57,933 nt of DNA from a virus, in the IMG/VR virus record IMGVR_UViG_3300030101_003124, positions 1 through 57,933 of that record; one strand, 5' to 3'. The notes under the pieces are model-generated. The model was not told the origin of the DNA and did no database searches. It saw only the letters and a program-made list of their open reading frames with translations. Positions 3,779-53,709 of the stretch are shown one piece after another. Position numbers and translations under genes: made by a program. Position 1 is the first letter of the stretch. Every line of letters begins with the position of its first letter.

Positions 3779-5350
3779 ATGGAATTTAATAACCCTAGTC
3801 AGATCGTAAAAGATCTAAACTTTGGCGATGTTGCCAAAAAAAGAGTTATTACCGGTGTAGAAAAATTAGCATCCGCTGTTAAATCTACACTTGGTGCTTC
3901 TGGTAAGTGCGTAGTATATGAAGACGCAAGAGGAAACCCTGTTATTACAAAAGACGGTGTTACTGTAGCTGAATCAGTTATACTAAGAGATCCTGTAGAA
4001 AACATAGGTGCAACACTTATTAAAGAAGCTGCTAAAAATACAGTGAGAGAAGCAGGTGACGGTACCACTACGGCTACCGTCCTTGCTGAATCACTATTAA
4101 AATTAGCAAATAGTAACGAATATTATGATGAATCTATACGAGATATTAAGCACGGTATGCAAACTGGGCTTAAAAAAGTAGAAGATTACTTAAAAGATAA
4201 TTCAGTAGCGGTAACTGGTGATATGTTAACTAGTGTAGCTACTATAAGTTGCAACGGAGATGCTAATCTAGGTAAGATAATTGCTGAAGCTTATGCTAAA
4301 GTTGGTAAAGATGGCACGGTTTTAATGGAAGAAAGCGAAACTGAAGAGACTTATGCTGACGTTGTTGAGGGTGTTAAGCTATCTGGAGGTCTAACATCTC
4401 AATATTTTGTAACTGATAAAGATAAAAACAGAGCAATACTAGAAAATCCACTAGTTTTAATTGTATCTTCTAAAATACCTAACATAAGAAAGATACAAAA
4501 CATACTAGAACATGTGATAAAAACTGGTAGATCTTTGCTAATTATGGCAGAAGTTGATCAACAGGTCAAATCTGCGCTTTTAATGAATAAAGTTAAAGGT
4601 AATATTAAAGTAAACATTGTAGATTTACCTGCACATGGTAAATATAAAGATCAAACTTTAGATGATTTAGCTTTAATAACTGGTGCAAAGGTCATGAACG
4701 AAGAGCTTGGAGATGATTTAGATCTAATCCAGCCAGATTGCTTGGGTGAAGTAGTAAAATCTGTGACTGACGACAGAACTACAGTCCTGACAACTGGTCC
4801 TCGAACAAGTAAACTTGAAGAAAGACAAGAAGAAATCAGAAAGTTAATAAAAAATGAGGAAAACGGTTATATAAAGAAGCAATTGCAAAAAAGATTATCA
4901 ACACTTTCAGGTTTTGTTGGTGTGATAAAAGTCGGAGCGTACTCAAAAGTTGAAATGAAGGAGAAAAAGGACAGAGTTGAAGATGCTATTTTTGCTACAA
5001 AAGCTGCTTTACAAGAAGGAATCGTTTCAGGCGGTGGAATTGCATTATTAAATGCTGCTTTAAGTATAAAAGAAGAAAATATAGGCGAAGAAATAGTTTC
5101 AAAAGCTATATTATCACCATTTAGAACTATACTTGATAACGCAGGTATTGAAAATGCTAAAGTTCCTAAAAAAATAGGCTATGGTATTGATGTAATTACT
5201 GGAAAAGAGGTCAATATGATTGAAAATGGCATTATTGACCCGGTTTTGGTAACAAAAACGGCACTAAAAAATGCAATTTCAGTAGTTTCTACTATAATTT
5301 CTGCAGATTGTGTAATATCTAATATAAGAGTGGACAATGCAAGCAGTTAA
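3779..5350 (+). CDS. groEL: Chaperonin GroEL (Hsp60), phage-encoded
   Basis: ATP-driven protein-folding ring, 523 residues against about 540-548 in bacteria. The whole family architecture is present. The equatorial ATP site has ITKDGVTVAE (near 56-65) and GDGTTTAT (93-100) with D94 matching E. coli D87. The catalytic aspartate region is DRVEDAIFATKAAL with D402 matching D398, followed by SGGGIA. The apical substrate groove keeps the SQYF tyrosine and phenylalanine. The Gly-Met-rich C-terminal tail found in bacterial GroEL is missing, which may alter cavity behaviour. It overlaps groES by 14 bases; the gene order is the reverse of the bacterial operon. It probably folds phage virion proteins. 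Very sure of family. Confidence 0.97.
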   Translation: MEFNNPSQIVKDLNFGDVAKKRVITGVEKLASAVKSTLGASGKCVVYEDARGNPVITKDGVTVAESVILRDPVENIGATLIKEAAKNTVREAGDGTTTATVLAESLLKLANSNEYYDESIRDIKHGMQTGLKKVEDYLKDNSVAVTGDMLTSVATISCNGDANLGKIIAEAYAKVGKDGTVLMEESETEETYADVVEGVKLSGGLTSQYFVTDKDKNRAILENPLVLIVSSKIPNIRKIQNILEHVIKTGRSLLIMAEVDQQVKSALLMNKVKGNIKVNIVDLPAHGKYKDQTLDDLALITGAKVMNEELGDDLDLIQPDCLGEVVKSVTDDRTTVLTTGPRTSKLEERQEEIRKLIKNEENGYIKKQLQKRLSTLSGFVGVIKVGAYSKVEMKEKKDRVEDAIFATKAALQEGIVSGGGIALLNAALSIKEENIGEEIVSKAILSPFRTILDNAGIENAKVPKKIGYGIDVITGKEVNMIENGIIDPVLVTKTALKNAISVVSTIISADCVISNIRVDNASS

Positions 5351-5594
5351 TCAATACATAGTAATAGAAAAAATTAAGCAAGAGCGTACTAAAGTTGCAG
5401 GTTTAGAGCTTACAGAAGAATTAGACAGTGACAATAGGTATGCTAAAGGCAAGGTTATAACTTGTGGCAGGTTTGCAGAAGGAGTAAAAGACGGAGATAT
5501 TGTACATTACGACAAGCATGTTGGCCATAGTATAAGATACAATGACAATGTATATGAGGTTATAACAATAAGAGATGTTGTTCTTGTCGGATGA
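5337..5594 (+). CDS. groES: Co-chaperonin GroES (cpn10)
   Basis: Lid of the GroEL ring, 85 residues. The cpn10 fold is seen as an N-terminal strand (NQYIVIEKIKQERTKVAGLE), a short mobile-loop region (GLELTEELDSDNRYAKG), then GKVITCGRFAEGVKDGDIV and a final strand VITIRDVVLVG. The mobile loop differs from the IVL type of bacterial GroES (candidate hydrophobic contact LEL), suggesting adaptation to its own GroEL partner or altered affinity for host GroEL. The start lies inside the end of groEL, so synthesis of the two is coupled, and its stop overlaps the next start (ATGA). Confidence 0.9.
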   Translation: MQAVNQYIVIEKIKQERTKVAGLELTEELDSDNRYAKGKVITCGRFAEGVKDGDIVHYDKHVGHSIRYNDNVYEVITIRDVVLVG

Positions 5595-6870: not shown

Positions 6871-7983
6871 ATGGCAAAAATAACAGAAATATTAAAACAC
6901 AATGAGAAATCATTGTCATCTGCAAAACACTTAGTAGATGGTAAAGGACATGGCATGGACGGTCATGATCACACTTCAGCTATAGGTAATATAGATGGGA
7001 TTAAAAAAATTATAAACACTAAAGCTGATGGTACAAAAACTTACGAGGTTCCTCCTGCTGTAGCTGGTGGAGAAGCTGGTGACGCTTATAAAAACAAAAT
7101 GATTGAAATGTATAAGGGTGGCGCTTCAATAGAAGACCTAGTAAAGCAAAAGCACGGTACTGTTGAAGGTTTAACAAAATTATTAGAAGGAGTTACAAGA
7201 ACAACAACAATACCAGGTAGTCAAACATTACAAGATATACCTAGTACAAATCCAGGCACGCCTGGAACTCCTCCGATACCTGAAAAATCAGTGACAGAAG
7301 GTGATTATTTAACAGCTGGTGAAACTAGAGAAGCTGGTAAAATATTAAAACTAAGAAATAAAGGTGGTGATAAAAGAAAGAAACAAGCCACTAAAAGCTT
7401 AAACAAGATGGTTAAGCAAGGTTTAGATATAGATAAAGAAATAGCAGCTGGCAACCAAAGTGTTATTAGCTTACTAGAACAAAGCGGTGGTTATAACAAA
7501 GGTGGTAAATTCAGAAAAGGATTTCTTGGTTTAGGTGGGGTAAATGATGATTTTGTTAGTACATCAGATAAAGTAGATGTTAAAAGCGCAAGTAGTGATC
7601 CTAGAGTTACAAACCCATATGTACGTAGACCTGGTAGTGCACAAGGTGTTAATAGAATGAACTTAGACAATAAAGTTATAACACAAGAAGCTGTAGAAGG
7701 AACAGAGGGAACAGCCGGTACTAGTTCACCAACTACACCAGCTGGTCCAGATGATACAGTTTATAAGAAAAACCCTAACACAAATAAATATGAGGCCGTG
7801 CCTAGTCCTGACACAAAACAAGAGGACATTATTTCTACAACTAGTTTATCATCACAAATGGAAACAAATGTGACTGGTAGTGGCGTAAGACCTAGTAGTA
7901 AGTACAAAGGAAACGCTGTGTCTAGGTTTAAAGTTAAAGGATATAAAATGAGCGGCTTTGGAAACAAGGCTAGTAAAAAATGA
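6871..7983 (+). CDS. Hypothetical structural-type protein (370 aa)
   Basis: Starts with a His/Gly-rich segment (GKGHGMDGHDHTSAIGN), then helical and Pro/Thr/Gly-rich linkers (GTPGTPPIP; TSSPTTPAGPDDT), a basic middle region, and ends KVKGYKMSGFGNKASKK. Low complexity and lack of enzymatic motifs suggest a virion or scaffold-associated protein. The basic, glycine-containing tail is like those of the SPAK proteins. The stop overlaps the holin start (ATGA), placing it in the same unit. No family recognised. Confidence 0.55.
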   Translation: MAKITEILKHNEKSLSSAKHLVDGKGHGMDGHDHTSAIGNIDGIKKIINTKADGTKTYEVPPAVAGGEAGDAYKNKMIEMYKGGASIEDLVKQKHGTVEGLTKLLEGVTRTTTIPGSQTLQDIPSTNPGTPGTPPIPEKSVTEGDYLTAGETREAGKILKLRNKGGDKRKKQATKSLNKMVKQGLDIDKEIAAGNQSVISLLEQSGGYNKGGKFRKGFLGLGGVNDDFVSTSDKVDVKSASSDPRVTNPYVRRPGSAQGVNRMNLDNKVITQEAVEGTEGTAGTSSPTTPAGPDDTVYKKNPNTNKYEAVPSPDTKQEDIISTTSLSSQMETNVTGSGVRPSSKYKGNAVSRFKVKGYKMSGFGNKASKK

Positions 7984-8384
7984 GCAAGATATTAAGTAAA
8001 ATATTTGGCAAAGCAGGTGGCTCTGTTGTAGATAAACTAGCTGGTGTTGCTGATAGATTCATAAGAACAAAAGACGAGAAAGCTGAGTTTGAAAAAGAAA
8101 TGACCAGCATTTTAATAGAAGCTGAAGCTGCTATGCAAAAAAATGTAACCGAAAGGTGGAAAGCAGATTTAGAGCACGGAAACTGGTTAACGCGTTCAGT
8201 TCGTCCTCTCGTACTTATATTCCTCATAGTGGCGACCGTGCTCATGGTATTTATAGATTCAGGTTCAATTAACTTCAATGTTGAAGAAAAATGGACTGAT
8301 TTATTGCAATTAGTACTTATGACAACTATCGGCGCCTATTTCGGCGGACGAAGTGTTGAAAAGTATAATAAAATGAAAAAATAA
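7980..8384 (+). CDS. Holin, GTA/3-TM holin type
   Basis: A 134-residue protein that probably permeabilises the inner membrane at lysis. It has a soluble helical N-terminus (residues 1-65, with KDEKAEFEKEMTSILIEAEA), then the NWLTRSVRPLV signature typical of the 3-TM holin family (Pfam GTA_holin_3TM, from memory), a membrane helix at about 76-92, a short loop, and a second helix at about 108-122 ending in a GGRSVEKY basic tail. Codons in the first membrane helix are GC-richer than in the surroundings. The endolysin is far away (52.3 kb), so the lysis genes are split. Confidence 0.8.
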   Translation: MSKILSKIFGKAGGSVVDKLAGVADRFIRTKDEKAEFEKEMTSILIEAEAAMQKNVTERWKADLEHGNWLTRSVRPLVLIFLIVATVLMVFIDSGSINFNVEEKWTDLLQLVLMTTIGAYFGGRSVEKYNKMKK

Positions 8385-20614: not shown

Positions 20615-20810
20615 TATTGGTAAAGATTATAAAAACGATGCCATGCATTACTCTGTAGGCCAAGAGGTTTATGGTGGGCATACTATTGAAGCTATATTAG
20701 AGGATAAAGATAAGTTTAGCGTTTATATAAAAAAGAACGATGAAATTATACCTTGGAAAGATTTCAATAAAAACATGGCAATATCTGTTGAATATAACCT
20801 AGAGTATTAG
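20589..20810 (+). CDS. Hypothetical 73-aa protein
   Basis: Begins MEKLIRKISIGKDYKNDAMH and contains YSVGQEVYGGHTIEAILED, a pattern I associate with small conserved proteins next to marine phage terminase genes. Compact alpha/beta, soluble. The start lies inside the preceding gene and its stop overlaps the GTG start of the next (TAGTG), so the four genes are tightly coupled. Function unknown. Confidence 0.55.
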   Translation: MEKLIRKISIGKDYKNDAMHYSVGQEVYGGHTIEAILEDKDKFSVYIKKNDEIIPWKDFNKNMAISVEYNLEY

Positions 20811-21406
20811 TGAAAGGTGTACAAAACTTTATAATAAAACCATTAGGTAGTAGATATAACAACGAGAAAAAAATTGGTGATAAAAATCTTATATTAAATA
20901 CAGATATTTTTCAACATAAATTTGTAAATAGACACGCTGTTGTTATAGAAACTCCTACTGTTGGTGATACAAAAATAAAAAAAGGTGACACTGTTATAGT
21001 GCACCATAATGTTTTTCGTAGATGGCATGATGTAAAAGGTGTTGAAAGAAATAGCAAAAGCTATTACAAAGACGGTTTATATTTTGTTTATCCAGATCAA
21101 GTTTTTGCTTATAATAATGGTAAAGAGTGGTTAGCTACCGATGGTTTTTGTTTTGTACAACCTATTGAAAACGATAGTGTGTATAGCATAAATGCAGAAA
21201 AAGAATTAGCAGGTATATTGTTTTACCCAGATAAACACTTAACTGATGCAGGTTTAAAAAAAGGAGACTTAGTTGGTTTTAAACCTAACACTGCTTACGA
21301 GTTTACAATAGATGGTAAGAAATTATATAGAATTATGAACCACTCAATTACAATTAAATATGAGTACAAAGGAAACGAAAAAGAGTATAATCCAAGCTGG
21401 TCATAA
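20810..21406 (+). CDS. Putative double GroES-like (cpn10-fold) protein
   Basis: 198 residues with a GTG start overlapping the upstream stop. Two halves each resemble cpn10: first FIIKPLGSRYNNE, then HAVVIETPTVGDTKIKKGDT and VIVHHNVFR; second GFCFVQPIENDS, then GILFYP, GLKKGDLVGFKPNTAYEF and IDGKKLYRIM. The strand-loop-strand, KKGD turn and IDGxxYRI ending match the order in GroES. Whether it docks on the phage GroEL is untested. Position beside terminase suggests a structural or folding role in head assembly. Similarity is inferred by eye. Confidence 0.5.
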   Translation: MKGVQNFIIKPLGSRYNNEKKIGDKNLILNTDIFQHKFVNRHAVVIETPTVGDTKIKKGDTVIVHHNVFRRWHDVKGVERNSKSYYKDGLYFVYPDQVFAYNNGKEWLATDGFCFVQPIENDSVYSINAEKELAGILFYPDKHLTDAGLKKGDLVGFKPNTAYEFTIDGKKLYRIMNHSITIKYEYKGNEKEYNPSWS

Positions 21407-41069: not shown

Positions 41070-44000
41070 ATGTCAAATCATAATTACGAAGATTTATTGA
41101 CTTGGTGGAATACACCACAAGAAGATCCTATTATAGACCCTGATCTTCCTAAACCCTTTGATATAGCTAATCAACCAAACCCACGTATATTTGCTGGTGG
41201 TGGAATGGACGCTAAATTTAAGCCACAAGCTGTATACGATCAAGAGGAAGAAAACAGAAAGCAAAACAAAATAAAAGAAAACAAAAGAATAAACGACGTT
41301 AATTTTGTAAACCAGTATAATGGTGCTAAACAACCTATAATGGATTGGTTAAATAATCCTGAAAATATAGCTAACATCTATGGTGTTGACGTTGATCAAT
41401 ACGATAACGTAGTTCAATGGAAAAACATACTAAGAGGATATGATGATCAAGCTGAAGGTGATGCTGATGCTTATAAAAAAATAGCAAAAGAATTAAAAAA
41501 ACAATTCGGTGATCAAAACTGGTACGGTGGTTTTGAGCAAAAAGAAGGTTACGAAAACCTATTAGAAAGAGACTTAGACAAACTAATAAAATACGGTATT
41601 GAGAAAAAAGTATCAGAAGAAGATAATTTAAATAAAGATACTAATAAAAAAAGATTAAACTCTGAAATAGTAAAAAGAGCTGAAGATCCTAAGTTTAATA
41701 GTGAAGGCGCTATTGTTGCCACCTATGAAGAATACGATTATTTAGCATCAACTCCAGCTGAACAAAATGTAATGGATATTACAAAACAGCTAAAAAAATC
41801 CATGGCAGGTGAAACCATTGAAGATGAAAATGGTAATATTCTTACACCTGAAATCCTACAACAAAAATTAAAGAAAGCATATGATGAGCTTAATAAAAGC
41901 GAATATGGTAATAATGTTAAAAACCTATATGACTGGGATGGTAATCCTATTGAAACTTTAGATAAAACAAAAGATTCATACGAGTTTACAGAAGAAGAAA
42001 TAAATGCTTATAAAGAAATAATAGAAAACGGTGGTCAACTAACAGAACCTACATACGCAGAGCATATAAGATCATTAAGAGAGGGTAAGTTCAAAGAACT
42101 TGCTTTAAATGACTTTGAGGGTGAAGACATGTATGATGTTGTCGTTAATGATCCTGAAGCTTGGGAAGTATTAAAAGAATATAAAACAGGTGCTGTAGAA
42201 AATGGTTTTACTTATAGAGTACCTATGAGTGTATTAAGTAAAAATTTTAGTAGAACAATAGCTACTGATGGTGATAGTGCTGGTGGATCAAACGTGATAA
42301 CTGGAGAGGAACAAGCTGCTATAGAACAAGGTACTGGACAAAATATAATAACTGGTAATAATTTTGATTCACCATTAGGTTATTTTGGTTTATTAGAAAA
42401 TGATAAAAAACAAGAATTTGGTTGGTTAGAAAGAAATTTTTACGATGAGGATTTATTTAGTGATAAAGACTTGTCAAGAGCATTTAAATTAAAAGTTAGA
42501 GACCACAGAGATAACAGAAAACAAATACTTTTAGAAAAAGAAGTGTTAAGACAAATGGATGCAATGAACATTGATCCAACACAAAAACTAGAAGGACAAG
42601 GCTTTAAAGACTTTATGAAACAAGGTTTACTTAAAGCTGGTGAAGGTTTTAAAGGCGATTTAGCACAATGGGCAGGTTTTGATAAAGTATTTGAAAAATA
42701 CGATGAAGACAGTTACAATAAAGTTTATAAAAGAGATATATACACTATACGAAAAGAAAAAGACGTTGTACAAACATTAGAAGATACTTATGGTGGTGTT
42801 GTAACTGAAGAAATGAAAAAGAGACTTGACAGGTCAGTTGGTTATAAAACATGGGAAGGTTTTACTGGTTTTATACCTGCGTTAGCAGAGTTTGCTGCTA
42901 TAGATGTTGCTGCTAAAAAAGTTGGTGTATTTACAGGTATACCTAAATTAGCTAAAAACTTATATAAAGCCGGTAGAGGTGCTGGCATGAGTGTTAAGTC
43001 TTCTAGAGGATTAGCACACACAACCAACTTTGTATTACATGCTATGTACGAAGAAGCTAAAATGAAAGCTGCTTTTGACGAATATTATCATATGGGTGGT
43101 GGCGTTGCTTTTTACTCTATAGGAAAAGCTTTACCATTTTTAAAATCTGCAAGCCCTACATTAAACAACGTTGTTAACAATATAGGTAGAGGTGGTATAG
43201 CCGGTACGTTATCTGTTCAAGGTGCACAAAACCTTGAGGCGTTAGTTGAAGATTTAAAAGGTAATAAAACCTTTATGTCTCATTTAGAAGAAACTTACTT
43301 TAATGAAAACGATGAGTTTAAACTATCAGACACAGCACAAACAGCTTTAGTTGACTTTTTAGTATTTGGTACTTTAGGTATAAGAGGTATGGCTAAACAA
43401 GGTGGTCAAATAAGAAAAGGTTATGATGGTCTTGGTAAAATACCAGCCTCATTAGGTATAGCTCCTGTAAGATCACAAACGTTAAGAGGTAAAGTTTGGT
43501 GGAAAGGTATTGAGCAAGTTAGAAACGAATCAGTTGCTGTAACAAAACAAATAAATGAACAGATTTCATTTTTAGAAAATCAAATGAAAACCTTAGAAGG
43601 TAATAATCCAACCACAAAACAGAGATTAGAAAAATTAAAAGCAGATAGAAAAAAATATCAAGAGCTTTATATAAACTCAGAGAATATGTTGATGACAGCA
43701 TATAGATTTGAAGACTGGCAAGATGATGCTAAAGCAACAGAGCACGTTAATAAAGTTTTTGATAATGTAAAAACTATTATTGATCCTGAAGGTAATTTAG
43801 AAATGATTGCTGGTAAAGAAGCACCTAAGTGGGTTACAGACAAAACTGCTGCAGCTGAAATAAACGCTGCTAGAAACAGAATATGGATAAACACTAACAA
43901 AGCAGAACCTGGTAAATTACCTCATGAAATAGTACATTACGCATTTAAAGAACTTATAAAAAGAAATCCTGATGTAGCTGCACAATTAAGAACACAGCTA

Positions 44001-47000
44001 GAAAAAGTTTTTGATAAAAAGAAAATGTTTGACATGAAAGGTAACGAGTTCTTTATTAAAGATATTGTAGAAGGATATAAATTTACTGAAGAAAGAAAAG
44101 GAGCGCTTGAATTAGAGGGTAAAACAAAAGAACAAATAAAAACAGAAGAAAAGAAATTATTAAATGAAGAGTATGTTGCTTATGTATTTGAAGCTTTAGC
44201 TAATCCAAGAAATTACAGTAGGTTTGTAACGTCTGAAAAATATAAAGACCTAGGCAAGTGGTCTGAAGGTTTAATGGAAAAATTTGGCGTTGATTATAAA
44301 ATAAAAACAAAAGAAGATTTAGTTAATTTCTTTTATAGTCTATCACAAGGTTTATCAAAAGGTAAAGTAACTCAAAAACAATGGGATATTTTTAATAATA
44401 TAGATAAACAACACTGGTTAAAAGAACCTATTGGTTCAGATATGAGAACTAGAAAATCTGAAGCTGAAGGCTTTGCTGTAGAAACATCTTCTAAAAATTT
44501 ACAAGAACTTGCTAAAAAATCAAAATCAACACAAGATAGGTTTAATCAGTTAAAAGAAAAATACGATGGAAATATAGATCAAGTGTTAAAAGAACTTTTA
44601 CTACCTGATCCAGCAAAACCAACTACATCTGTTAGTAAAGAGTTTGACGGTATTGTATATAACGTTATTGATTCTTATAATCAAAGGATGGTTAGAAAAG
44701 GTGCTCCTGATCTACAAGTAACAGACCCAGCTGATAGATACATGCTAGCTACAGAATTAGTTTATGATTTATCAAGAGGTAAAAACAGAGGTTTAGAGTC
44801 TATAATTAAAACATATGATCCAGCCGCTTTTGGTAAAACAGAAGCTCAATACCCTTTAACAAAACATGTTATGCAGCAGTTAGCGCTACGTGTATTTGAA
44901 ATAAAAGAAGGTAGTTTAGATGTTGGTAAATCTGGAGGTTTTGATATTAGCTTGTCTGATCCTGATATTGCTAGAAATTTAGAAAACAAATATTTAAGCG
45001 GAGAGTCTTTTGATTTTAGACCAAAAGAAAGTGAACCAGCAAAAGCATTTAACGCTTTAAACGAGGGTATACGTATAAGTGAAATTACTAAAGCTCCTTC
45101 TTCTATAAAAACCCAAGATGTTATAGATTATGTAAAAGGTATAAAACCTGAAAACTATATAAAAGATTTATCTTTTAATAGTATAGGTAAAGCTTTTGAA
45201 AAAGTTACTGAAGATGGTTTGTATGAAGCTATGAATGTTACTCGTGATATGAAGCCAGCTGAGTTTGTAAATAATTTTAAAGAAGCATTTGATAATATAG
45301 GTGAAAAAAATGCACATGTGTTTTTGCCTAAAACATCTAATGAAAAGTTTTATCAACCTACAAACATAAACAAAAGTATATTTAAATCTATATATACTAA
45401 AACAAACGAAAAGTTTAAAAGTAATGAAATGCCTGAGTGGTCAGAAACTAACGCTAGAACACTTAAGTATACTAAAAACGATTATGTAGAAGGTCAACTA
45501 GAAAACATTATATTTAACAAAAGAGATAATGTAGCTATTAAAAAAGCAGCACAACAGTTTATAACATATATAAGTAAACCTAAGTCATCACAAGATTTTA
45601 GAGAAAAACTAAATGATCCAATGGTTCAAGATTTTATGAAAAAACAAGCTCCTGAAGCATATCATAAACTTACATTTGAAGATATTTATAATAGTTATAT
45701 TAAAGAAAAAATTGAAGGAGCAACACCAAAAGGTTTGCAGTCAAAAGATTTAAGCGAGTTGGCTAAAAAAGAAATAGGTGTTTGGAATAAGTTTAAACAA
45801 AGTATAAGAACACATAATTGGAATGATTATGAAAACACGGGTGAAGCATGGGAAAACTTAAAATTAAAATTTAGTACAGCTGATCAAAAAGTTTTAGATA
45901 AACACTGGGATAAAATAAGTGGTGAAAACGGTTATAAAATAAGTAGTGACGTTGTAAAAAACTTAAACGATAGAATGACAGCTATGCAGTCACTAGGTCT
46001 TACAGCTAAAGTAAAACCATTTGTGCCTATTTCTTTTCCTGACAAATACGTGGGAATAAATAGAGAGATAAATAGAGTTTTACAAGAAAAAGGTTGGGAT
46101 GCAAAAGATATTCAAAGACTAGAGTTTAACATTACCGACAAAAATGGTAAAATAAAAACAATGACAGATAGAGTAAAAGATCCTGTTTTTAATGAAAAGT
46201 TTTACTCTGAAATGGCTGAGATTGCAAAAACAATGGATCCTGCTATTGCTAAATTATTTACTAATAGTTTAGGTCATGGACAATACAAAACACCTTTATT
46301 AAATTTTGAAAAAGCAGATTATACTAAGGAAGGTTATTTGTCAGCTAGTCATAGAAAAAGAACTTATGATGGTTTAGGAACAAAAGAAAAATTAGATTTT
46401 AATCCAGCACATGTTAAATTAACTGATAACGTAAATGTTAAAAAGAAACACGATCAGTTGTTAGAAACTATTGACACGTCTACTCCTGCTGGTAAAAAGA
46501 GATATGCTAAAGCAATGTCTGACTTTTTAACTAAAAAAGGTGTTACATTAGAACAAACGGAAATAGCTAACGAAAAAGCATTAAACTATATAAAAGGCAA
46601 GTTGTTTGACTACTATGCTGGTTCTAAGGATAAAGCTTCTGCTTTAAGTAGTATACATCATCTTTTACAACTACAAACAAGTATAGGTCAAGGTTTTGCT
46701 AGAGGTTTAGCTACTCACAATGCCGGTGTTATAGACAAAGGTATGATTGATCCTGAAACTGGTAAAAGGATGTATAGAAGTGAGCATGAACTTCAAGTAG
46801 CTAATTTTAATGGTAACTCTTTAATTAAACTTCTTGAATCTAAAACAAAAGAAGAATATTTAAAAGAAATTGGAAAACTAACGGCTAAATATAGACAAAG
46901 TATAATACCTGAACAATTAAGAAAAATTGTAGATAACCCTGAGTTTGGCGGTAATACAGGTTTGTTAAAAGGGTATAATAGTAATATATCTGCTAAAGCA

Positions 47001-49817
47001 AATTTTATGCTAAATGAAATTGTAATGGAAAAAACAATAGATTTTAAAACAGGTAAGTCGTACAAACAACTAGTTGAAGAATCTGTAAATATAGCTACAA
47101 GCTATAAAACAGTAAACAAGATAAAACAAAATCTTTTAGAAAATTTAAATAAAAGATTTCCAGGCATGAAGTCTTTAGATTTATCTTCACCAGAATTAAT
47201 GAAAAAAATAGCAGAGGTTAATGATGTTATTACATTAATGGGTATAAAAGGTAGAAAAAGACAAGGTATTAGTATATTTGACTTTGATGACACATTAGCT
47301 AAGTCAAATAGTAAGGTATTAGTTACAATGCCTGATGGTAAGAAGTTTAAAATAAATGCTACTGAATTTGCTAAGCGAGATGCTGAGTTAACGGAAAAAG
47401 GGGCTAAATATGATTTTAGTGAATTTAATAAAGTTATACAAGGTAAAAAAGGTCCTTTAGCGGATTTAGCTTTAAAGCGACAAGATAAGTTTGGAAGCGG
47501 TGATATATTTGTATTAACAGCAAGACCACAACAATCAGCTAAGTCTATACATAAATTTTTAAAGAGTATAGGGTTAGAAATACCACTAGAAAACATAACA
47601 GGTTTAGAAAATGGAACACCAGCTGCAAAAGCAATGTGGGTTTTAAACAAAGCATCTAAAGGTTATAATGATTTTTATTTTGCTGATGATGCTATTAAAA
47701 ATGTAAAAGCTGTAAAACAAGTATTAGATTTAATAGATGTTAAAGGTGATGTTCAACAAGCAATGCAGTCAAAAGACCTTGACAAACTTATTAACGACAT
47801 GGTCGAAAGAAAATTTGGTATTGGATCACAAAAAGTTTATTCACCTAGTAAAGCTCAAGTCATGGGTGCTAAAAGTGGTAAGTTTCAATTTATGGCCTCT
47901 TCTGCTCAAGATTTTCAAGGTTTATGGTATAGACTTTTAGGTAAAGGAAAACAAGGTGATTTAGATAAAAAGTTTTTTGAAGATAATCTACAGAAACCAT
48001 ACAACAGAGCAGAAAACAAATTATCTAGCGATAGAATGAATATGATAAATGATTTTAACGCTATGAAAAAACAATTAGTTGAAGCTGGAATACCTAAAGA
48101 TTTAATGAAAGAAATACCAGGTGAGCCTTATACAATTCAACAAGCTATAAGAGTTTATACTTGGGCTAAGTCTGGTTACGAAATACCTAACTTATCAAAA
48201 GCTGATCAAAAAATGATGGTTGATTATGTAAATTCAAAACCTGCTTTAGCTAGATTTTCTCAACAATTAATAAATTTAAACGGTGGTAATGGTTATATAA
48301 AACCAACTGAGTCTTGGTTAGCTGGAACAATAACAACAGACTTACATAAAAACTTAAATGAAAATAAAAGAGCTGAGTATTTACAAGAGTGGCAACAAAA
48401 TGTTGATATAATATTTAGTCCTAAAAACATGAATAAGTTTGAGGCTGCTTTAGGTAGTAACTGGAGAGCTGCTATGGAGAACATGTTACAAAGAATGAAA
48501 ACTGGTAGCAACAGGCCTGGTCCTTTATTAAGTGGTAAGGCTGGTCAAATGGAACAAAGAGCTCTTGACTGGGTGAACAACTCTGTTGGCGCTATAATGT
48601 TCTTGAACTCTAAATCAGCTTTATTACAAACAATATCTACTATAAACTATGTTAACTGGACAGATAATAATCCTCTTCAGTTTTCTAAAGCTATAGCAAA
48701 CCAAAAACAGTTTTGGAAAGATTACACATATTTAATGAACTCTGATTTCTTAGTAGAAAGAAGGGGTGGTAATAGAATAAATGTTGCTGAAAATGAAATA
48801 GCAGAAGCTGCTAATAAAAATGGTGTTGAAGGTGCTATAAGTTATTTACTCAATAAAGGTTTTGTATTAACAAGAGCAGCTGATAGTCATGCTATTGCTT
48901 CTGGTGGTGCTGCTTTTTATAGAAACAGAACTAACAGATACATTAAAGAAGGTATGAGTAAAGCTGAAGCAGAGAAAAAAGCATTTGATGATTTTAGAGA
49001 AATAACAGAAGAGTCACAGCAGTCAAGTAGAGCTGATAGAATATCAATGCAACAAGCTAGTCATTTAGGTAGATTAGTTTTATCGTTTGCTAACACTCCA
49101 TCTCAGTATGCTAGAATAATGCAAAGAGCCGCTGATGATCTTAAAAACGGTAGAGGTGATGCTAGAGAGCATATGTCTAAAATAGCTTATTATGGTTTTA
49201 TACAAAACCTAATGTTTAACGGCTTACAAAACGCTTTATTTAGAGATGCATTTGATGATAATGAAAAAATAGACGGTGACTATGTTAGAACAGCTAATGG
49301 TATGGCTGAAAGTATATTAAGAGGTATGGGTTGGCAAGGTGCCGCTGTGAATACAGTTAGAAGTATGATGTATGCTGCTATAAAAGAAAGTCAAAAGAAA
49401 AGATCTAAATATGCTAACGTAGGTTATAATATAATGGACATGGCTCCACCTATAGATTCTAAAGTATCTAAACTAAGATCTGCTGGTTTAAAATTAGATT
49501 ATGAAATGGATCAAATAAAAGAAAAAGGATTTTTAGATCCTACAAACCCTGCTTACATGTCTCTTGGTCAAGTTGTATCAGCTACGACAAACGTTCCTTT
49601 AGACAGATTATTTATAAAATACAATAACATAGAAGCTGCGTTAAGAGAAGATACAGAAGACTGGCAACGTATAGCTTTATTACTAGGTTGGACAGAGTGG
49701 CAACTTGGCATGTTAGATAAAGACGAAACAGAGGATTTAAAAGATCTTATAAGGGAAATTGGTGAAAGATCAGTCGGAGAAAGAGAAATTGGTGAGAGAA
49801 CAATACAAGAACGTTAA
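41070..49817 (+). CDS. Giant polyvalent virion protein with zinc-peptidase motif and HAD phosphatase domain
   Basis: 2915 residues; probably packaged and ejected with the DNA. A mostly helical N-terminus is followed at about 595-710 by a hydrophobic Gly/Ala-rich region (GFTGFIPALAEFAAIDVAAK). Residues 952-956 are HEIVH in a zincin context (KLPHEIVHYAFKEL), with NEEYVAYVFEAL at 1032-1043 offering the third ligand. A HAD domain follows: IFDFDDTLAKS (D2071 and D2073), DIFVLTARPQQSA, an AAKAMWVL lysine, and DFYFADDAIKN. The C-terminus (ISTINYVNWTDNNP; LVLSFANTPSQYARIMQRAA) resembles other large polyvalent phage proteins. It ends with GER repeats. No RNA polymerase motif was found. Confidence 0.7.
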   Translation: MSNHNYEDLLTWWNTPQEDPIIDPDLPKPFDIANQPNPRIFAGGGMDAKFKPQAVYDQEEENRKQNKIKENKRINDVNFVNQYNGAKQPIMDWLNNPENIANIYGVDVDQYDNVVQWKNILRGYDDQAEGDADAYKKIAKELKKQFGDQNWYGGFEQKEGYENLLERDLDKLIKYGIEKKVSEEDNLNKDTNKKRLNSEIVKRAEDPKFNSEGAIVATYEEYDYLASTPAEQNVMDITKQLKKSMAGETIEDENGNILTPEILQQKLKKAYDELNKSEYGNNVKNLYDWDGNPIETLDKTKDSYEFTEEEINAYKEIIENGGQLTEPTYAEHIRSLREGKFKELALNDFEGEDMYDVVVNDPEAWEVLKEYKTGAVENGFTYRVPMSVLSKNFSRTIATDGDSAGGSNVITGEEQAAIEQGTGQNIITGNNFDSPLGYFGLLENDKKQEFGWLERNFYDEDLFSDKDLSRAFKLKVRDHRDNRKQILLEKEVLRQMDAMNIDPTQKLEGQGFKDFMKQGLLKAGEGFKGDLAQWAGFDKVFEKYDEDSYNKVYKRDIYTIRKEKDVVQTLEDTYGGVVTEEMKKRLDRSVGYKTWEGFTGFIPALAEFAAIDVAAKKVGVFTGIPKLAKNLYKAGRGAGMSVKSSRGLAHTTNFVLHAMYEEAKMKAAFDEYYHMGGGVAFYSIGKALPFLKSASPTLNNVVNNIGRGGIAGTLSVQGAQNLEALVEDLKGNKTFMSHLEETYFNENDEFKLSDTAQTALVDFLVFGTLGIRGMAKQGGQIRKGYDGLGKIPASLGIAPVRSQTLRGKVWWKGIEQVRNESVAVTKQINEQISFLENQMKTLEGNNPTTKQRLEKLKADRKKYQELYINSENMLMTAYRFEDWQDDAKATEHVNKVFDNVKTIIDPEGNLEMIAGKEAPKWVTDKTAAAEINAARNRIWINTNKAEPGKLPHEIVHYAFKELIKRNPDVAAQLRTQLEKVFDKKKMFDMKGNEFFIKDIVEGYKFTEERKGALELEGKTKEQIKTEEKKLLNEEYVAYVFEALANPRNYSRFVTSEKYKDLGKWSEGLMEKFGVDYKIKTKEDLVNFFYSLSQGLSKGKVTQKQWDIFNNIDKQHWLKEPIGSDMRTRKSEAEGFAVETSSKNLQELAKKSKSTQDRFNQLKEKYDGNIDQVLKELLLPDPAKPTTSVSKEFDGIVYNVIDSYNQRMVRKGAPDLQVTDPADRYMLATELVYDLSRGKNRGLESIIKTYDPAAFGKTEAQYPLTKHVMQQLALRVFEIKEGSLDVGKSGGFDISLSDPDIARNLENKYLSGESFDFRPKESEPAKAFNALNEGIRISEITKAPSSIKTQDVIDYVKGIKPENYIKDLSFNSIGKAFEKVTEDGLYEAMNVTRDMKPAEFVNNFKEAFDNIGEKNAHVFLPKTSNEKFYQPTNINKSIFKSIYTKTNEKFKSNEMPEWSETNARTLKYTKNDYVEGQLENIIFNKRDNVAIKKAAQQFITYISKPKSSQDFREKLNDPMVQDFMKKQAPEAYHKLTFEDIYNSYIKEKIEGATPKGLQSKDLSELAKKEIGVWNKFKQSIRTHNWNDYENTGEAWENLKLKFSTADQKVLDKHWDKISGENGYKISSDVVKNLNDRMTAMQSLGLTAKVKPFVPISFPDKYVGINREINRVLQEKGWDAKDIQRLEFNITDKNGKIKTMTDRVKDPVFNEKFYSEMAEIAKTMDPAIAKLFTNSLGHGQYKTPLLNFEKADYTKEGYLSASHRKRTYDGLGTKEKLDFNPAHVKLTDNVNVKKKHDQLLETIDTSTPAGKKRYAKAMSDFLTKKGVTLEQTEIANEKALNYIKGKLFDYYAGSKDKASALSSIHHLLQLQTSIGQGFARGLATHNAGVIDKGMIDPETGKRMYRSEHELQVANFNGNSLIKLLESKTKEEYLKEIGKLTAKYRQSIIPEQLRKIVDNPEFGGNTGLLKGYNSNISAKANFMLNEIVMEKTIDFKTGKSYKQLVEESVNIATSYKTVNKIKQNLLENLNKRFPGMKSLDLSSPELMKKIAEVNDVITLMGIKGRKRQGISIFDFDDTLAKSNSKVLVTMPDGKKFKINATEFAKRDAELTEKGAKYDFSEFNKVIQGKKGPLADLALKRQDKFGSGDIFVLTARPQQSAKSIHKFLKSIGLEIPLENITGLENGTPAAKAMWVLNKASKGYNDFYFADDAIKNVKAVKQVLDLIDVKGDVQQAMQSKDLDKLINDMVERKFGIGSQKVYSPSKAQVMGAKSGKFQFMASSAQDFQGLWYRLLGKGKQGDLDKKFFEDNLQKPYNRAENKLSSDRMNMINDFNAMKKQLVEAGIPKDLMKEIPGEPYTIQQAIRVYTWAKSGYEIPNLSKADQKMMVDYVNSKPALARFSQQLINLNGGNGYIKPTESWLAGTITTDLHKNLNENKRAEYLQEWQQNVDIIFSPKNMNKFEAALGSNWRAAMENMLQRMKTGSNRPGPLLSGKAGQMEQRALDWVNNSVGAIMFLNSKSALLQTISTINYVNWTDNNPLQFSKAIANQKQFWKDYTYLMNSDFLVERRGGNRINVAENEIAEAANKNGVEGAISYLLNKGFVLTRAADSHAIASGGAAFYRNRTNRYIKEGMSKAEAEKKAFDDFREITEESQQSSRADRISMQQASHLGRLVLSFANTPSQYARIMQRAADDLKNGRGDAREHMSKIAYYGFIQNLMFNGLQNALFRDAFDDNEKIDGDYVRTANGMAESILRGMGWQGAAVNTVRSMMYAAIKESQKKRSKYANVGYNIMDMAPPIDSKVSKLRSAGLKLDYEMDQIKEKGFLDPTNPAYMSLGQVVSATTNVPLDRLFIKYNNIEAALREDTEDWQRIALLLGWTEWQLGMLDKDETEDLKDLIREIGERSVGEREIGERTIQER

Positions 49818-49860: not shown

Positions 49861-51057
49861 ATGAGACAATTGCTAATTATAGTATTTTTACTATCAAATA
49901 TCACTGTTTTTGCACAAGAAAACAAAAAAAGTATATTTAAATCAATTTATGATGAATTTTTTAAATATAGTACTTTTTACATAGCTGGTGATATAGATAA
50001 TCCAAAAGAAGAAGTTAAAGATTATTTTGTAAGAACAAATCCAGATGGTGGTCTGTATGATATACCCGTTGTAGTAGACGGAACAGATTACTATGACTTT
50101 GATTATAGATATGGTTTTGGTGTGCGTAAACTAGCTAGGTTTGATTATGAATTTAAAGGTAAACATTATTATGATGGTACTGAAAGTAGTGTAGGCTTAG
50201 CCGCAACTAATTCACCTGTAAAAGGTTTTGAATATTTATTCCACTGGGAAAAGGAAAGAGAAAGAGACGAAGTATTTGACAATCATAGATATTTTTTAAA
50301 ACATAGTGGTAAATACCATGTTGTTAAAATAGAAAGTAGAAAACAAGGTAAAGTTGATTTTAACTATAAGTCAGCTGAAGTAAAAGCTAAATTACCTATT
50401 GGTAATAAATTTAGTTTATCTGCAGGCGCTATATACCGTACACACGAAAGACCTTATGGATATAATCCTATTGAAATATGGTTAAATGAAACAGAAATAA
50501 TAAACGGTCAAGAATATCCTGTTAACTATTGGTACGAACTAGGTTTCTTATATGGTTATGATGATGTATATTATACACAGCAAGATGAGTTTGGCAACGA
50601 AGTATATGACTGGTATTGGATAGATCCAGATGGAAATATAGTTGCTGATAGTGATTTAGAGTTTCGTGATGGTGTGTTTGCAGATCTTATGAACCGATAC
50701 AATAATGAGATATTTGAAAACATCGATGCGTTTGGTGTAATATCACCTGTTGTCGGTTTTGACTTTTACCACTATAAAAATAATTTCTGGCTCCATGCTT
50801 ATGGTAACTACCTATTACCATATCACAAGTATGTTCAAGGTGACGAAGACTTTAGTTATTTAAATAGAAATAACTGGGGTAAAGGTGGACTAAAACAAGA
50901 TTCTGAGCCAGAACAATGGGAGGATTATCAAGCTGGTGTTGTATTTGGTTGGAAGCTAAGTAAATCAATTGGTTTGTTTGTAGAGGGTGAATATACTAAA
51001 TTCTGGGATAGTAAAATCTATAACAGTTCTGTTGGACTAAATATAACACTAAGATAA
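49861..51057 (+). CDS. Secreted outer-membrane beta-barrel-like protein
   Basis: 398 residues. The N-terminus MRQLLIIVFLLSNITVFAQ is a clear Sec signal with the Bacteroidetes-style end AQ-E. The body is rich in alternating aromatic strands (FDYRYGFGVRKLARFDYEFK; AEVKAKLPIGNKFSLSAGAI; DYQAGVVFGWKLSKSIGLF), ending in a strand (SSVGLNITLR) as barrels do. It therefore should be exported by the infected cell, not packed in the virion. I recall similar proteins in other uncultured marine phages. Possible roles: blocking superinfection, altering the outer membrane, nutrient uptake, or lysis. It starts the cassette that ends with endolysin. Confidence 0.75.
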   Translation: MRQLLIIVFLLSNITVFAQENKKSIFKSIYDEFFKYSTFYIAGDIDNPKEEVKDYFVRTNPDGGLYDIPVVVDGTDYYDFDYRYGFGVRKLARFDYEFKGKHYYDGTESSVGLAATNSPVKGFEYLFHWEKERERDEVFDNHRYFLKHSGKYHVVKIESRKQGKVDFNYKSAEVKAKLPIGNKFSLSAGAIYRTHERPYGYNPIEIWLNETEIINGQEYPVNYWYELGFLYGYDDVYYTQQDEFGNEVYDWYWIDPDGNIVADSDLEFRDGVFADLMNRYNNEIFENIDAFGVISPVVGFDFYHYKNNFWLHAYGNYLLPYHKYVQGDEDFSYLNRNNWGKGGLKQDSEPEQWEDYQAGVVFGWKLSKSIGLFVEGEYTKFWDSKIYNSSVGLNITLR

Positions 51058-51341
51058 TGGCAAATCAAATTGGAGAAAACACAAAGGTAACATTAGACCT
51101 TAAAACAATAGGTATTATTGTAGGTTTTACAATTACTTTAGCAAGTATGTATTTTGTAATGCAAGCAGATATAGCTAAAGCTATGGAACTACCAGCACCT
51201 GTTATTGATAGAGTTGAATATGATTTAAAAGATGAATTAATTCGTCAGACAATTATGGATACGCAAGAAGACGTAGAAGAAATTAAAGAAACTATTGACA
51301 AGATAGATCAAAGATTATACGAAATACAAAGAAACAGGTAA
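51057..51341 (+). CDS. Single-span membrane protein with coiled coil (94 aa)
   Basis: Soluble head of ~15 residues, then a membrane helix (IGIIVGFTITLASMYFVMQA) and a long C-terminal heptad helix (DELIRQTIMDTQEDVEEIKE; KIDQRLYEIQRN). The layout matches inner-membrane spanins (Rz-like), whose periplasmic coil bridges to the outer membrane. It lies between the outer-membrane protein and the thioredoxin-like protein, with overlapping start and stop codons. A spanin role is inferred from shape only. Confidence 0.6.
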   Translation: MANQIGENTKVTLDLKTIGIIVGFTITLASMYFVMQADIAKAMELPAPVIDRVEYDLKDELIRQTIMDTQEDVEEIKETIDKIDQRLYEIQRNR

Positions 51342-51784
51342 TGAAAGAAAAAACTAAAATTTTTATAATGTATATGCTTATTTTAATACTAGCATTTACA
51401 GCTAGCCTTGCAATGGCACAATCAGACGTGCCAGAAAAATATTGGATAGATGATACTAATTTTGAAGAAAAAATAAATATAAAAGAGGCTTTTGGAGACG
51501 ATAACAACAAACCTGTTGTAGTTGAGTTTTGGGCAAAGTTTAACGAAGTAAACTGTTTTGCTGAGTGGGATCAGTTAGAAGATGCTATTTATTATAGAGT
51601 TGATATAGCTAAAGCTCCAACAGCTAAAAAGAAATACAAAGTCCGTATGGCACCAACTATTATAATATATAAAGATGGTTTTAAAGAAGAAGTTTTTAAA
51701 GCAGGTTTAGATCTTGAATTACCTGCAGGTCTCGAAGAAATTCAAGAAGCAATAAATGAAGTTAATAACGCAAGTAAATTTTAA
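51341..51784 (+). CDS. Exported thioredoxin-fold protein without CxxC
   Basis: 147 residues. Signal peptide in residues 1-26 (IFIMYMLILILAFTASLAMA). The mature part has the thioredoxin core VVVEFWAKFNEVNCF (59-73) and VRMAPTIIIYKDGF with the cis-Pro loop (MAPT, 103-106). Only one cysteine (C72) remains where a CxxC redox pair is expected, so it is probably not a normal dithiol enzyme; it could bind a partner protein or act through a single cysteine. Located in the periplasm by the signal. It overlaps the next gene by 29 bases. Confidence 0.7.
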   Translation: MKEKTKIFIMYMLILILAFTASLAMAQSDVPEKYWIDDTNFEEKINIKEAFGDDNNKPVVVEFWAKFNEVNCFAEWDQLEDAIYYRVDIAKAPTAKKKYKVRMAPTIIIYKDGFKEEVFKAGLDLELPAGLEEIQEAINEVNNASKF

Positions 51785-52142
51785 GCTATGTGTCCTTTTT
51801 GTCCTATTTGCATTTGTAAGTAATGCACAATTATTAAGTGAAAAAGATAAACAGTTACATTTTGTAGCTGGTAGCTTGGCTAGTGCAACCGGCTATACGT
51901 ATGTGTGGAACAAAACAAAGGATAAAAAATTATCTTTAATGGCTGGTATAGGTACTTCTATATTAGCTGGATCAATAAAAGAAATATTAGACTCTACTCA
52001 ACCAGGTAACAAGTTTGACACAAGAGATCTAACCGCTACAGCACTTGGCGGTATAACTGTAAGTGTTACAATTAATTTATTTAATAATGATAAATCTAAT
52101 AAAAAAGTTCGTAAAAGACGTTTGGGCGTATTTATGGAGTAA
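51756..52142 (+). CDS. Exported YfiM/DUF2279-like membrane protein (128 aa)
   Basis: Starts with a signal-type helix (FKLCVLFVLFAFVSNAQ). The mature region has KQLHFVAGSLASATGYTYVW, MAGIGTSILAGSIKEILDST and FDTRDLTATALGGITVSVTI, a pattern of two to three hydrophobic segments with KE, D and G positions like YfiM-type proteins. These are of unknown function but common in Bacteroidetes and phages near lysis genes. The end is basic (NKKVRKRRLG). It is part of the envelope cassette, overlapping genes on both sides. Confidence 0.6.
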   Translation: MKLITQVNFKLCVLFVLFAFVSNAQLLSEKDKQLHFVAGSLASATGYTYVWNKTKDKKLSLMAGIGTSILAGSIKEILDSTQPGNKFDTRDLTATALGGITVSVTINLFNNDKSNKKVRKRRLGVFME

Positions 52143-52326
52143 AACTACAGTAGATGAAAAAGCAATTGCTACTGTAAAAGAAATAAAGAAAAGATATAAG
52201 CTAACTGCAGAAGAACTTGCAGATGTAGCTAAAGCAATAAAAGAAGTTGGAAACCAATTAGGTGACATTGATGACGCTATTGCTGGTAAAGCACGTAAAG
52301 GTAGAAAAAGTGGAAAGACTAAGTAA
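52087..52326 (+). CDS. Small protein with amphipathic N-terminus and basic tail (79 aa)
   Basis: Starts MINLIKKFVKDVWAYLWSKT, which could insert in a membrane, then KEIKKRYKLTAEELADVAKA and ends KARKGRKSGKTK. I chose the ATG at 52087; the upstream in-frame ATG lies deeper inside the previous gene. It overlaps both neighbours. I recall similar proteins beside endolysins of marine phages, so a role in lysis or virion assembly is likely but unproven. Confidence 0.55.
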   Translation: MINLIKKFVKDVWAYLWSKTTVDEKAIATVKEIKKRYKLTAEELADVAKAIKEVGNQLGDIDDAIAGKARKGRKSGKTK

Positions 52327-52774
52327 ACACGTAAGTTATCGCGAAGGTGTGTATAGCAGAACAGCAGAGAGACTTGGATTAAAAAATGATCCCTCTGATG
52401 TTCATTTAACAAACATGAAGCTTATTGCAGAAAAAGTATTTGAACCTCTTAGAGAGTTTGTAGGAGGTCCTATAAAGATAAATTCATTTTATCGTGGACC
52501 TGAACTTAACAAAGCTATTGGTGGTTCATCAAAATCTCAACATTGTCATGGTCAAGCAATTGACATTGATGATACATTTGGACATGCTACTAATGCTGTT
52601 ATGTTTAAATGGATAAGAGAAAACATAGACTTTGATCAGATGATATGGGAGTTCGGCACTGACAAAAATCCTAACTGGGTTCACGTTAGTTACGTAAGTC
52701 CTGAGTCTAATAGAAAAAGATGCTTAAAAGCATATAAAGACAAAAACAATAAAACAAACTACAAAATAATATAA
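52310..52774 (+). CDS. Endolysin, M15-type peptidase
   Basis: 154 residues; cuts peptide cross-links of peptidoglycan at the end of infection. The M15 zinc site is complete: SQHCHGQAIDID (H78, D85), WEFG with catalytic-type E114, and PNWVHVSY with H125. KINSFYRGPELNKAIGG is the usual segment before the site. I chose the GTG at 52310 because it overlaps the upstream gene by a short stretch and gives the usual RLSKHVSYREG opening; an earlier ATG at 52262 would add an unrelated leader. No signal peptide, so it needs a holin. Confidence 0.88.
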   Translation: MERLSKHVSYREGVYSRTAERLGLKNDPSDVHLTNMKLIAEKVFEPLREFVGGPIKINSFYRGPELNKAIGGSSKSQHCHGQAIDIDDTFGHATNAVMFKWIRENIDFDQMIWEFGTDKNPNWVHVSYVSPESNRKRCLKAYKDKNNKTNYKII

Positions 52775-53470: not shown

Positions 53471-53686
53471 ATGTGGAAATTATTTGAAGATAAAAACAAC
53501 ATTAACGAAAAGAACATAATAGGTTTTGCTTCTTTTATAGTAATGGTTTTGTTTGCTGTGGCTGACTTACTAACAAGTCTTATAGCAGATAAAGATCTTA
53601 TTATTAATGAAGTAGTTTATAATTCTTTCGTGTGGGTTACACTTGGATGTTTTGGCATATCTGCTGTAGAAAAAATAAAGAAATAA
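53471..53686 (+). CDS. Two-span membrane protein, possible second holin (71 aa)
   Basis: Starts MWKLFEDKNNINEKN and has two hydrophobic helices (IIGFASFIVMVLFAVADLLT; IINEVVYNSFVWVTLGCFGI), ending VEKIKK. The start at 53471 sits just behind the previous stop. Size and topology fit class II holins or antiholins. Since a 3-TM holin is already encoded at 8 kb, this could act as an antiholin or pinholin next to the endolysin, or do something unrelated. Confidence 0.6.
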   Translation: MWKLFEDKNNINEKNIIGFASFIVMVLFAVADLLTSLIADKDLIINEVVYNSFVWVTLGCFGISAVEKIKK

Positions 53687-53689
53687 AAA

Positions 53690-53709
53690 AAAGGGGCTTT
53701 CGCCCCTTT
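53690..53709. terminator. Bidirectional terminator between convergent units
   Basis: GGGGC-TTTC-GCCCC (53693-53706) with an A-run before and T-run after it. It can therefore stop transcription from both sides: the rightward late unit and the leftward nrdA unit, whose stop codon lies 5 bases away. Confidence 0.92.

Follow-up and report, generated by a model that had tools for sequence, protein, structure and literature searches.

A conserved trio of envelope-targeted proteins beside the lysis genes of uncultured marine phages: a tentative three-component spanin

In many phages of Gram-negative hosts the outer membrane is opened without a recognisable spanin. Of the 677 genomes surveyed by Kongari et al., 91 yielded no spanin, some of them from Croceibacter (Flavobacteriia) and Bacteroides phages, and the authors proposed, as an untested possibility, that an outer-membrane protein might act as o-spanin (PMC6139136). 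In the two-component spanins (lambda Rz/Rz1, T4 PseT.3/PseT.2), a protein with an N-terminal inner-membrane span and a periplasmic coiled coil is encoded alongside its outer-membrane partner in the lysis-cassette neighbourhood, and ~96% of the known pairs have a periplasmic cysteine for an intermolecular disulfide (PMC6139136). Unimolecular spanins (u-spanins, T1 gp11 type) combine a lipobox and a C-terminal span in one protein. According to a 2025 survey, in which the O-spanin filters demand a lipobox, Bacteroidetes phages use only u-spanins (PMC12596118). Here we describe three adjoining phage genes, A, B and C, which provide a concrete and widely distributed candidate for the opening of the outer membrane, and which searches that require a lipobox would miss.

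The genes lie in a stretch of 57,933 nucleotides (the window), the first 57.9 kb of an IMG/VR record of 68.7 kb. Its terminase and portal have relatives in Cellulophaga phi38:1 (Pervagoviridae), in Elemovirus and in further flavobacterial phages, the nearest deposited genome being MW202828 (terminase identity 62%); judged by these proteins, the window is a phage genome, a relative of Pervagoviridae and Elemovirus. The genome also encodes GroEL and a ribonucleotide reductase. The range 3779-5594 covers GroEL and, immediately after it, a GroES-like gene, and a second protein is encoded upstream of the terminase (20810-21406), at a place where the counterpart in relatives is annotated GroES. The last gene of the structural region (41070-49817) encodes 2915 amino acids; very long versions occur in relatives too, the counterpart in MW202828 and Elemovirus being ~11 kb. 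The features that concern us are as follows.

7980-8384, plus strand: 3TM GTA-type holin (phrog_3427 holin, E 7.4e-24), far from the A-B-C cassette
49861-51057, plus strand: gene A, core; 398-aa exported protein, predicted outer-membrane beta-barrel (signal peptide, AlphaFold, Foldseek)
51057-51341, plus strand: gene B, core; 94-aa protein with a single span and a coiled coil (conserved family)
51341-51784, plus strand: gene C, core; 147-aa exported protein with a thioredoxin fold (Pfam Thioredoxin, E 4.7e-7)
51756-52142, plus strand: gene D, variable passenger; YfiM-like exported protein (NF008028, E 5.7e-9; phrog_26616 lipoprotein, E 1.6e-8)
52087-52326, plus strand: gene E, variable passenger; 79-aa small protein (ATG start at 52087)
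52310-52774, plus strand: gene F; M15 peptidase endolysin without a signal peptide (Peptidase_M15_3, E 5.7e-14; phrog_894 endolysin, E 2.6e-30)
53471-53686, plus strand: two-span small protein, holin candidate (weak phrog_4325 holin match)
53690-53709, no strand: terminator-like hairpin, bidirectional, end of the late cassette

A preliminary description of the window had presented A to F as one envelope-targeted cassette leading into the endolysin. All six genes were confirmed where it had placed them, save for two start sites: E more likely begins at ATG 52087, and for F the sequence makes GTG 52310 more likely than 52262. The three signal peptides that it had reported were found on A, C and D. 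Its reading of F as an M15 endolysin agrees with the PHROG match and with a Peptidase_M15_3 score of 52.6 bits, above the cut-off of 23.2. D is exported and resembles YfiM, as had been proposed; it scores 36 bits against the NCBIfam YfiM model, below the cut-off of 117, and the window copy lacks the lipobox that is present in several relatives, so that by sequence it is YfiM-like only and falls outside the YfiM lipoprotein family. The lysis region extends beyond 52774, to the two-span protein and the hairpin.

Gene A had been described as an outer-membrane barrel-like protein with a signal peptide, a description borne out by AlphaFold and Foldseek. The signal peptide is present in 159 of 161 members, and the AlphaFold model, of moderate confidence (pTM 0.65), is a barrel; the predicted antiparallel barrel and hydrophobic C-terminal strand, together with the signal peptide, give A the features of outer-membrane beta-barrels. 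Foldseek returned outer-membrane barrels in general, including porins, with low TM-scores, which supports the fold class of A only, and no specific barrel family was assigned. The nearest structural match was a viral protein (BFVD A0A516LKJ4; Foldseek E 4e-25, 24% identity, TM 0.55/0.63), which itself had no tblastn match in phage records. Searches of Pfam, PHROGs, NCBIfam and PDB gave nothing significant for A, and 50,697 deposited phage records gave nothing credible, the sole match there being meaningless (E 7). With porins among the Foldseek matches, and with phage-encoded porin-like proteins included in BFVD, A could serve uptake into the infected cell, as a porin or transporter assisted by B and C. 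We consider this very unlikely, as by sequence A is related to no porin family, and a transporter would leave its obligatory partners B and C, and the lysis neighbourhood described below, unexplained.

A is strongly conserved, with ~90 invariant residues among 45 diverse members. Conservation is higher on the polar strand faces (0.87), which in the model presumably point into the barrel, than on the nonpolar ones (0.74), and the predicted long loops are also strongly conserved (0.71 and 0.83) and not diversifying. Cysteine is absent from A in 148 of 165 members.

B, previously described as a single-span coiled-coil protein, indeed has one membrane span (residues ~17-36) and a heptad repeat (residues ~57-93) that is hydrophobic at 8 of 10 a/d positions vs 3 of 27 others. 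Its predicted topology (N-in/C-periplasm) gives it the layout of an i-spanin, a type II inner-membrane protein with a periplasmic coiled coil. A periplasmic cysteine was found in none of 186 members. Most members weakly match phrog_1009, the function of which is not annotated. B was rejected as a known holin or Rz, the matches to phrog_1296 and phrog_739 being just weak. In several phages a second B-like protein, with the conserved motif KWPRGEMGALPDDAKQDLRIxYLQKxV, adjoins B or the M15 gene:

L060, 7233-7535: second B-like protein
L081, 7188-7487: second B-like protein
L453, 782-1126: second B-like protein

The description of C as exported and thioredoxin-like stood, given the Pfam match and the signal peptide, which was found in 157 of 165 members. 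The AlphaFold model (pLDDT 89) matched thioredoxins in Foldseek, and a profile search of the PDB likewise returned the thioredoxin fold. C shares with thioredoxins the fold and the cis-proline motif (MAPT), but, unlike them, it is exported, has obligatory partners and lacks the CxxC active site in every one of 165 members, which rules out an active oxidoreductase; 130 of the 165 have one cysteine per protein. From the fold, the export and the loss of CxxC, a structural or binding role for C is likely.

The three proteins can now be set against the known systems. Like two-component spanins, they comprise an inner-membrane protein in which a periplasmic coiled coil follows an N-terminal span (B) and an outer-membrane partner encoded alongside, in the neighbourhood of a lysis cassette. 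Unlike two-component spanins, they have as outer-membrane partner a barrel of ~400 aa that lacks a lipobox, and they include a third protein, with a thioredoxin fold; cysteine, present in most such spanins, is missing from B and mostly from A, and we found no sequence relation. The u-spanin layout, with a lipobox and a C-terminal span in one protein, is shown by none of A, B and C. The preliminary description knew of no system of such composition; among open-licence papers we likewise found none on a system like A-B-C.

A scan of IMG/VR with A gave 180 relatives, and gene families were built from the 80 kept loci. Among these, A, B and C are neighbours at almost every locus, arranged A-B-C or B-C-A. 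Where the flanks were at least 2.5 kb, all three genes were present in 55 of 55 A-anchored, 55 of 58 B-anchored and 48 of 48 C-anchored loci, the B- and C-anchored scans being independent of the A scan; loci with adequate flanks that were fetched by a B or C query alone had the complete trio in 103 of 106 cases. The trio is kept even where A is a distant relative detected by profile only (L431, L432, L433), and a search of 13 contigs over their full length gave a single copy of A per contig. We regard it as near certain that the association of A, B and C, found in hundreds of uncultured marine phages, mostly beside lysis genes, is real and conserved. The contigs are fragments, so that absences weigh less than presences throughout, and the rules for signal peptides, lipoboxes and spans were simple. 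The six-gene set of the preliminary description, which was to be judged by co-occurrence in relatives, stood in part: A, B and C co-occur as a unit, but D (near 21 of 96 trio loci) and E (near 37 of 96), both in shifting positions, do not. We therefore rejected a six-gene unit and treat D and E as passengers that vary between loci.

In the window A directly follows the 2915-aa gene, which could suggest that the trio belongs to the virion or to its assembly. This is extremely unlikely, considering the signal peptides on almost all A (159 of 161) and C (157 of 165) proteins, and the fact that in different phages the trio stays together beside unrelated structural genes. We also rejected a cellular origin of A. 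A pattern scan over 84,980 genomes found A on five contigs, all in MAGs and, where read, with phage-type gene sets, from which the archaeal and alphaproteobacterial labels look like mis-binning. The A-bearing GTDB contigs L087, L088, L089 and L090 are labelled Woesearchaeota, Maricaulis and Alphaproteobacteria.

We analysed the neighbourhood of the trio in 96 unique loci with at least 4 kb on each side of B, counting lytic genes within 5 kb on the same strand. A recognised lytic-type gene was found in 83 loci: M15 in 71, Amidase_2 with PG_binding_1 in 6, phrog_3000/endolysin-like in 3 and DUF5675, presumed to act on the cell wall, in 3. Among the remaining 13, an Amidase_2 gene (L176) and a gene for a PG_binding_1 protein (L159) come directly after C, and 11 are without a recognised lytic enzyme within 5 kb. 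Under our assumption of a 60-kb genome with one endolysin, a random gene would lie that close in ~1/6 of cases, and the loci are not independent of one another. Holins lie near part of the trio loci (Phage_holin_4_1, 3TM types and also a two-span family); the family of the two-span protein at 53471-53686 directly precedes A in many other trio loci. The trio thus shows the linkage to holin and endolysin genes that is typical of two-component spanins. On the tree of A the label of the lytic enzyme changes 17 times, and at least 5 changes of the M15 label are forced by well-supported branches (rows L092 and L094, with very long branches, are artefacts), indicating that the trio persists as the endolysins beside it are swapped. 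In several large phages (L122, L133, L149, L080, L073) a PAP2-type phosphatase gene adjoins the trio.

The trio may also stand apart from recognisable lysis genes: in L164 all of its neighbours are on the other strand, and in L171-L173 it lies amid baseplate-like genes. These loci would suit the other suggestion of the preliminary description, a superinfection-exclusion device. Late in infection A, in the outer membrane, would block adsorption or DNA entry of other phages, or mask receptors so that released virions do not stick to debris, with B as anchor and C as chaperone; the occurrence of the trio in phages with unrelated structural genes is also possible for exclusion genes. Yet no sequence-defined family of superinfection-exclusion proteins fits the trio, and we found no positive support for the suggestion. 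The apparently late operon position after the virion genes, the endolysin neighbours in most loci and the conserved, non-diversifying long loops of A argue against it, and we consider it unlikely.

We scanned the whole 68.7-kb record for hydrophobic segments. The scan returned the holin at 7980, A, B, C, D and the two-span protein at 53471; further matches were a weak stretch in the 52777 gene, one small minus-strand protein and spurious ORFs, along with segments inside the terminase and inside a single other protein from the virion region. The only exported proteins in this genome are A, C and D. No credible lipoprotein gene was found in it, the single lipobox match being an ORF antisense to a gene, nor any spanin candidate other than the cassette. 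Thus, if the phage opens the outer membrane by a periplasmic route, the candidates are A to D.

At the trio loci, neither A nor C showed a lipobox, and a relaxed u-spanin scan of 104 A-B-C loci returned D-type proteins only, in 6 of 104. Pairs of a lipoprotein and a type II protein were flagged by a loose rule in 11 of 104, and the lipoprotein families n10 and n19 occur near the trio. In related contigs without A, candidate u-spanins hold the place beside the M15 endolysin in 7 of 16, and this u-spanin family is absent from all 104 trio loci, a comparison that is confounded by clade. One of the 16 has a lipoprotein and type II pair. One of the 16, L449 (the same contig as L453), begins just ahead of a B-C pair, so A may lie off the contig, and one of the seven u-spanin contigs, L443 (the same contig as L452), also carries B and C. 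Four B-C pairs without A were found; in L161 the pair is alone, and the other three have the following partners.

L170, 6475-6738: 87-aa lipoprotein
L174, 5590-5853: 87-aa lipoprotein, shared with L170
L452, 4754-5149: u-spanin

By sequence, these loci fit a scheme in which B-C has several interchangeable partners in the outer membrane, A among them. L452, where B-C and a u-spanin coexist, indicates that B-C is not strictly exclusive with spanins. It is possible, though not very probable, that the trio is an accessory of lysis and not the disruptor of the outer membrane: B and C might, for example, regulate or position the endolysin or detect damage to the wall, and A might permeabilise the outer membrane as a pore, without membrane fusion. 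The coexistence in L452 and the same lysis-gene neighbourhood are compatible with such a role, as is the high conservation in A of the polar strand faces and the long loops, which would be expected of a channel or a binding site. The window genome, however, offered no other candidate for disruption of the outer membrane.

We consider it probable that A-B-C have a role in lysis of some kind. On balance we favour, less firmly, a spanin-like module for disruption of the outer membrane, in which the barrel A would replace the o-spanin lipoprotein. This reading is supported by the co-occurrence of the three genes, the adjacent unrelated endolysins and holins, the fact that no lipoprotein gene was found in this genome, and the u-spanin counts (7/16 vs 0/104). 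A lysis pathway that replaces classical spanins, as the preliminary description had suggested, thus finds support for A-B-C, but D and E are not obligate parts of it. The fuller proposal, that of a three-component spanin (A as o-spanin, a redox-dead C and a short B) that is widespread in marine phages, probably those of Bacteroidota, and not known from deposited isolates, is more tentative, and we put it forward as possible rather than probable.

We infer that A, B and C bind each other and act at lysis. B would sit in the inner membrane with its periplasmic coiled coil, like an i-spanin, A would be the outer-membrane partner, a beta-barrel instead of the usual lipoprotein, and C, the redox-dead thioredoxin fold, would bridge the periplasm between them or assemble them. 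B contributes only a short coiled coil (~36 residues), so that C and A would need to span the remaining periplasm. After the holin has opened the inner membrane and the M15 endolysin has degraded the wall, A-B-C would disrupt the outer membrane, perhaps by drawing both membranes together. Against the spanin-like reading stand the 11 of 96 loci without a lytic enzyme, the trios that stand alone in L164 and L171-L173, the scarcity of cysteine in A and B, and the 11 of 104 loci with a flagged pair of a lipoprotein and a type II protein. The trio is suited to the standard lambda lysis assay.

Neither A nor B was found by profile in MW202828, Elemovirus, phi38:1 and Panino. These phages have another protein of ~200 aa, with a span at the N-terminus and a C-terminus rich in beta structure, which in three of the four is encoded within ~2.5 kb of the endolysin. 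The divergent proteins of relatives without the trio (~180-207 aa) are located as follows.

L083, 35390-36013, minus strand
L084, 20392-20937
L085, 24701-25303, minus strand
L086, 44184-44783

Judging from its layout, which would be an unusual one, this protein is possibly a one-piece spanin reaching from the inner to the outer membrane. Its C-terminus ends like an outer-membrane strand.
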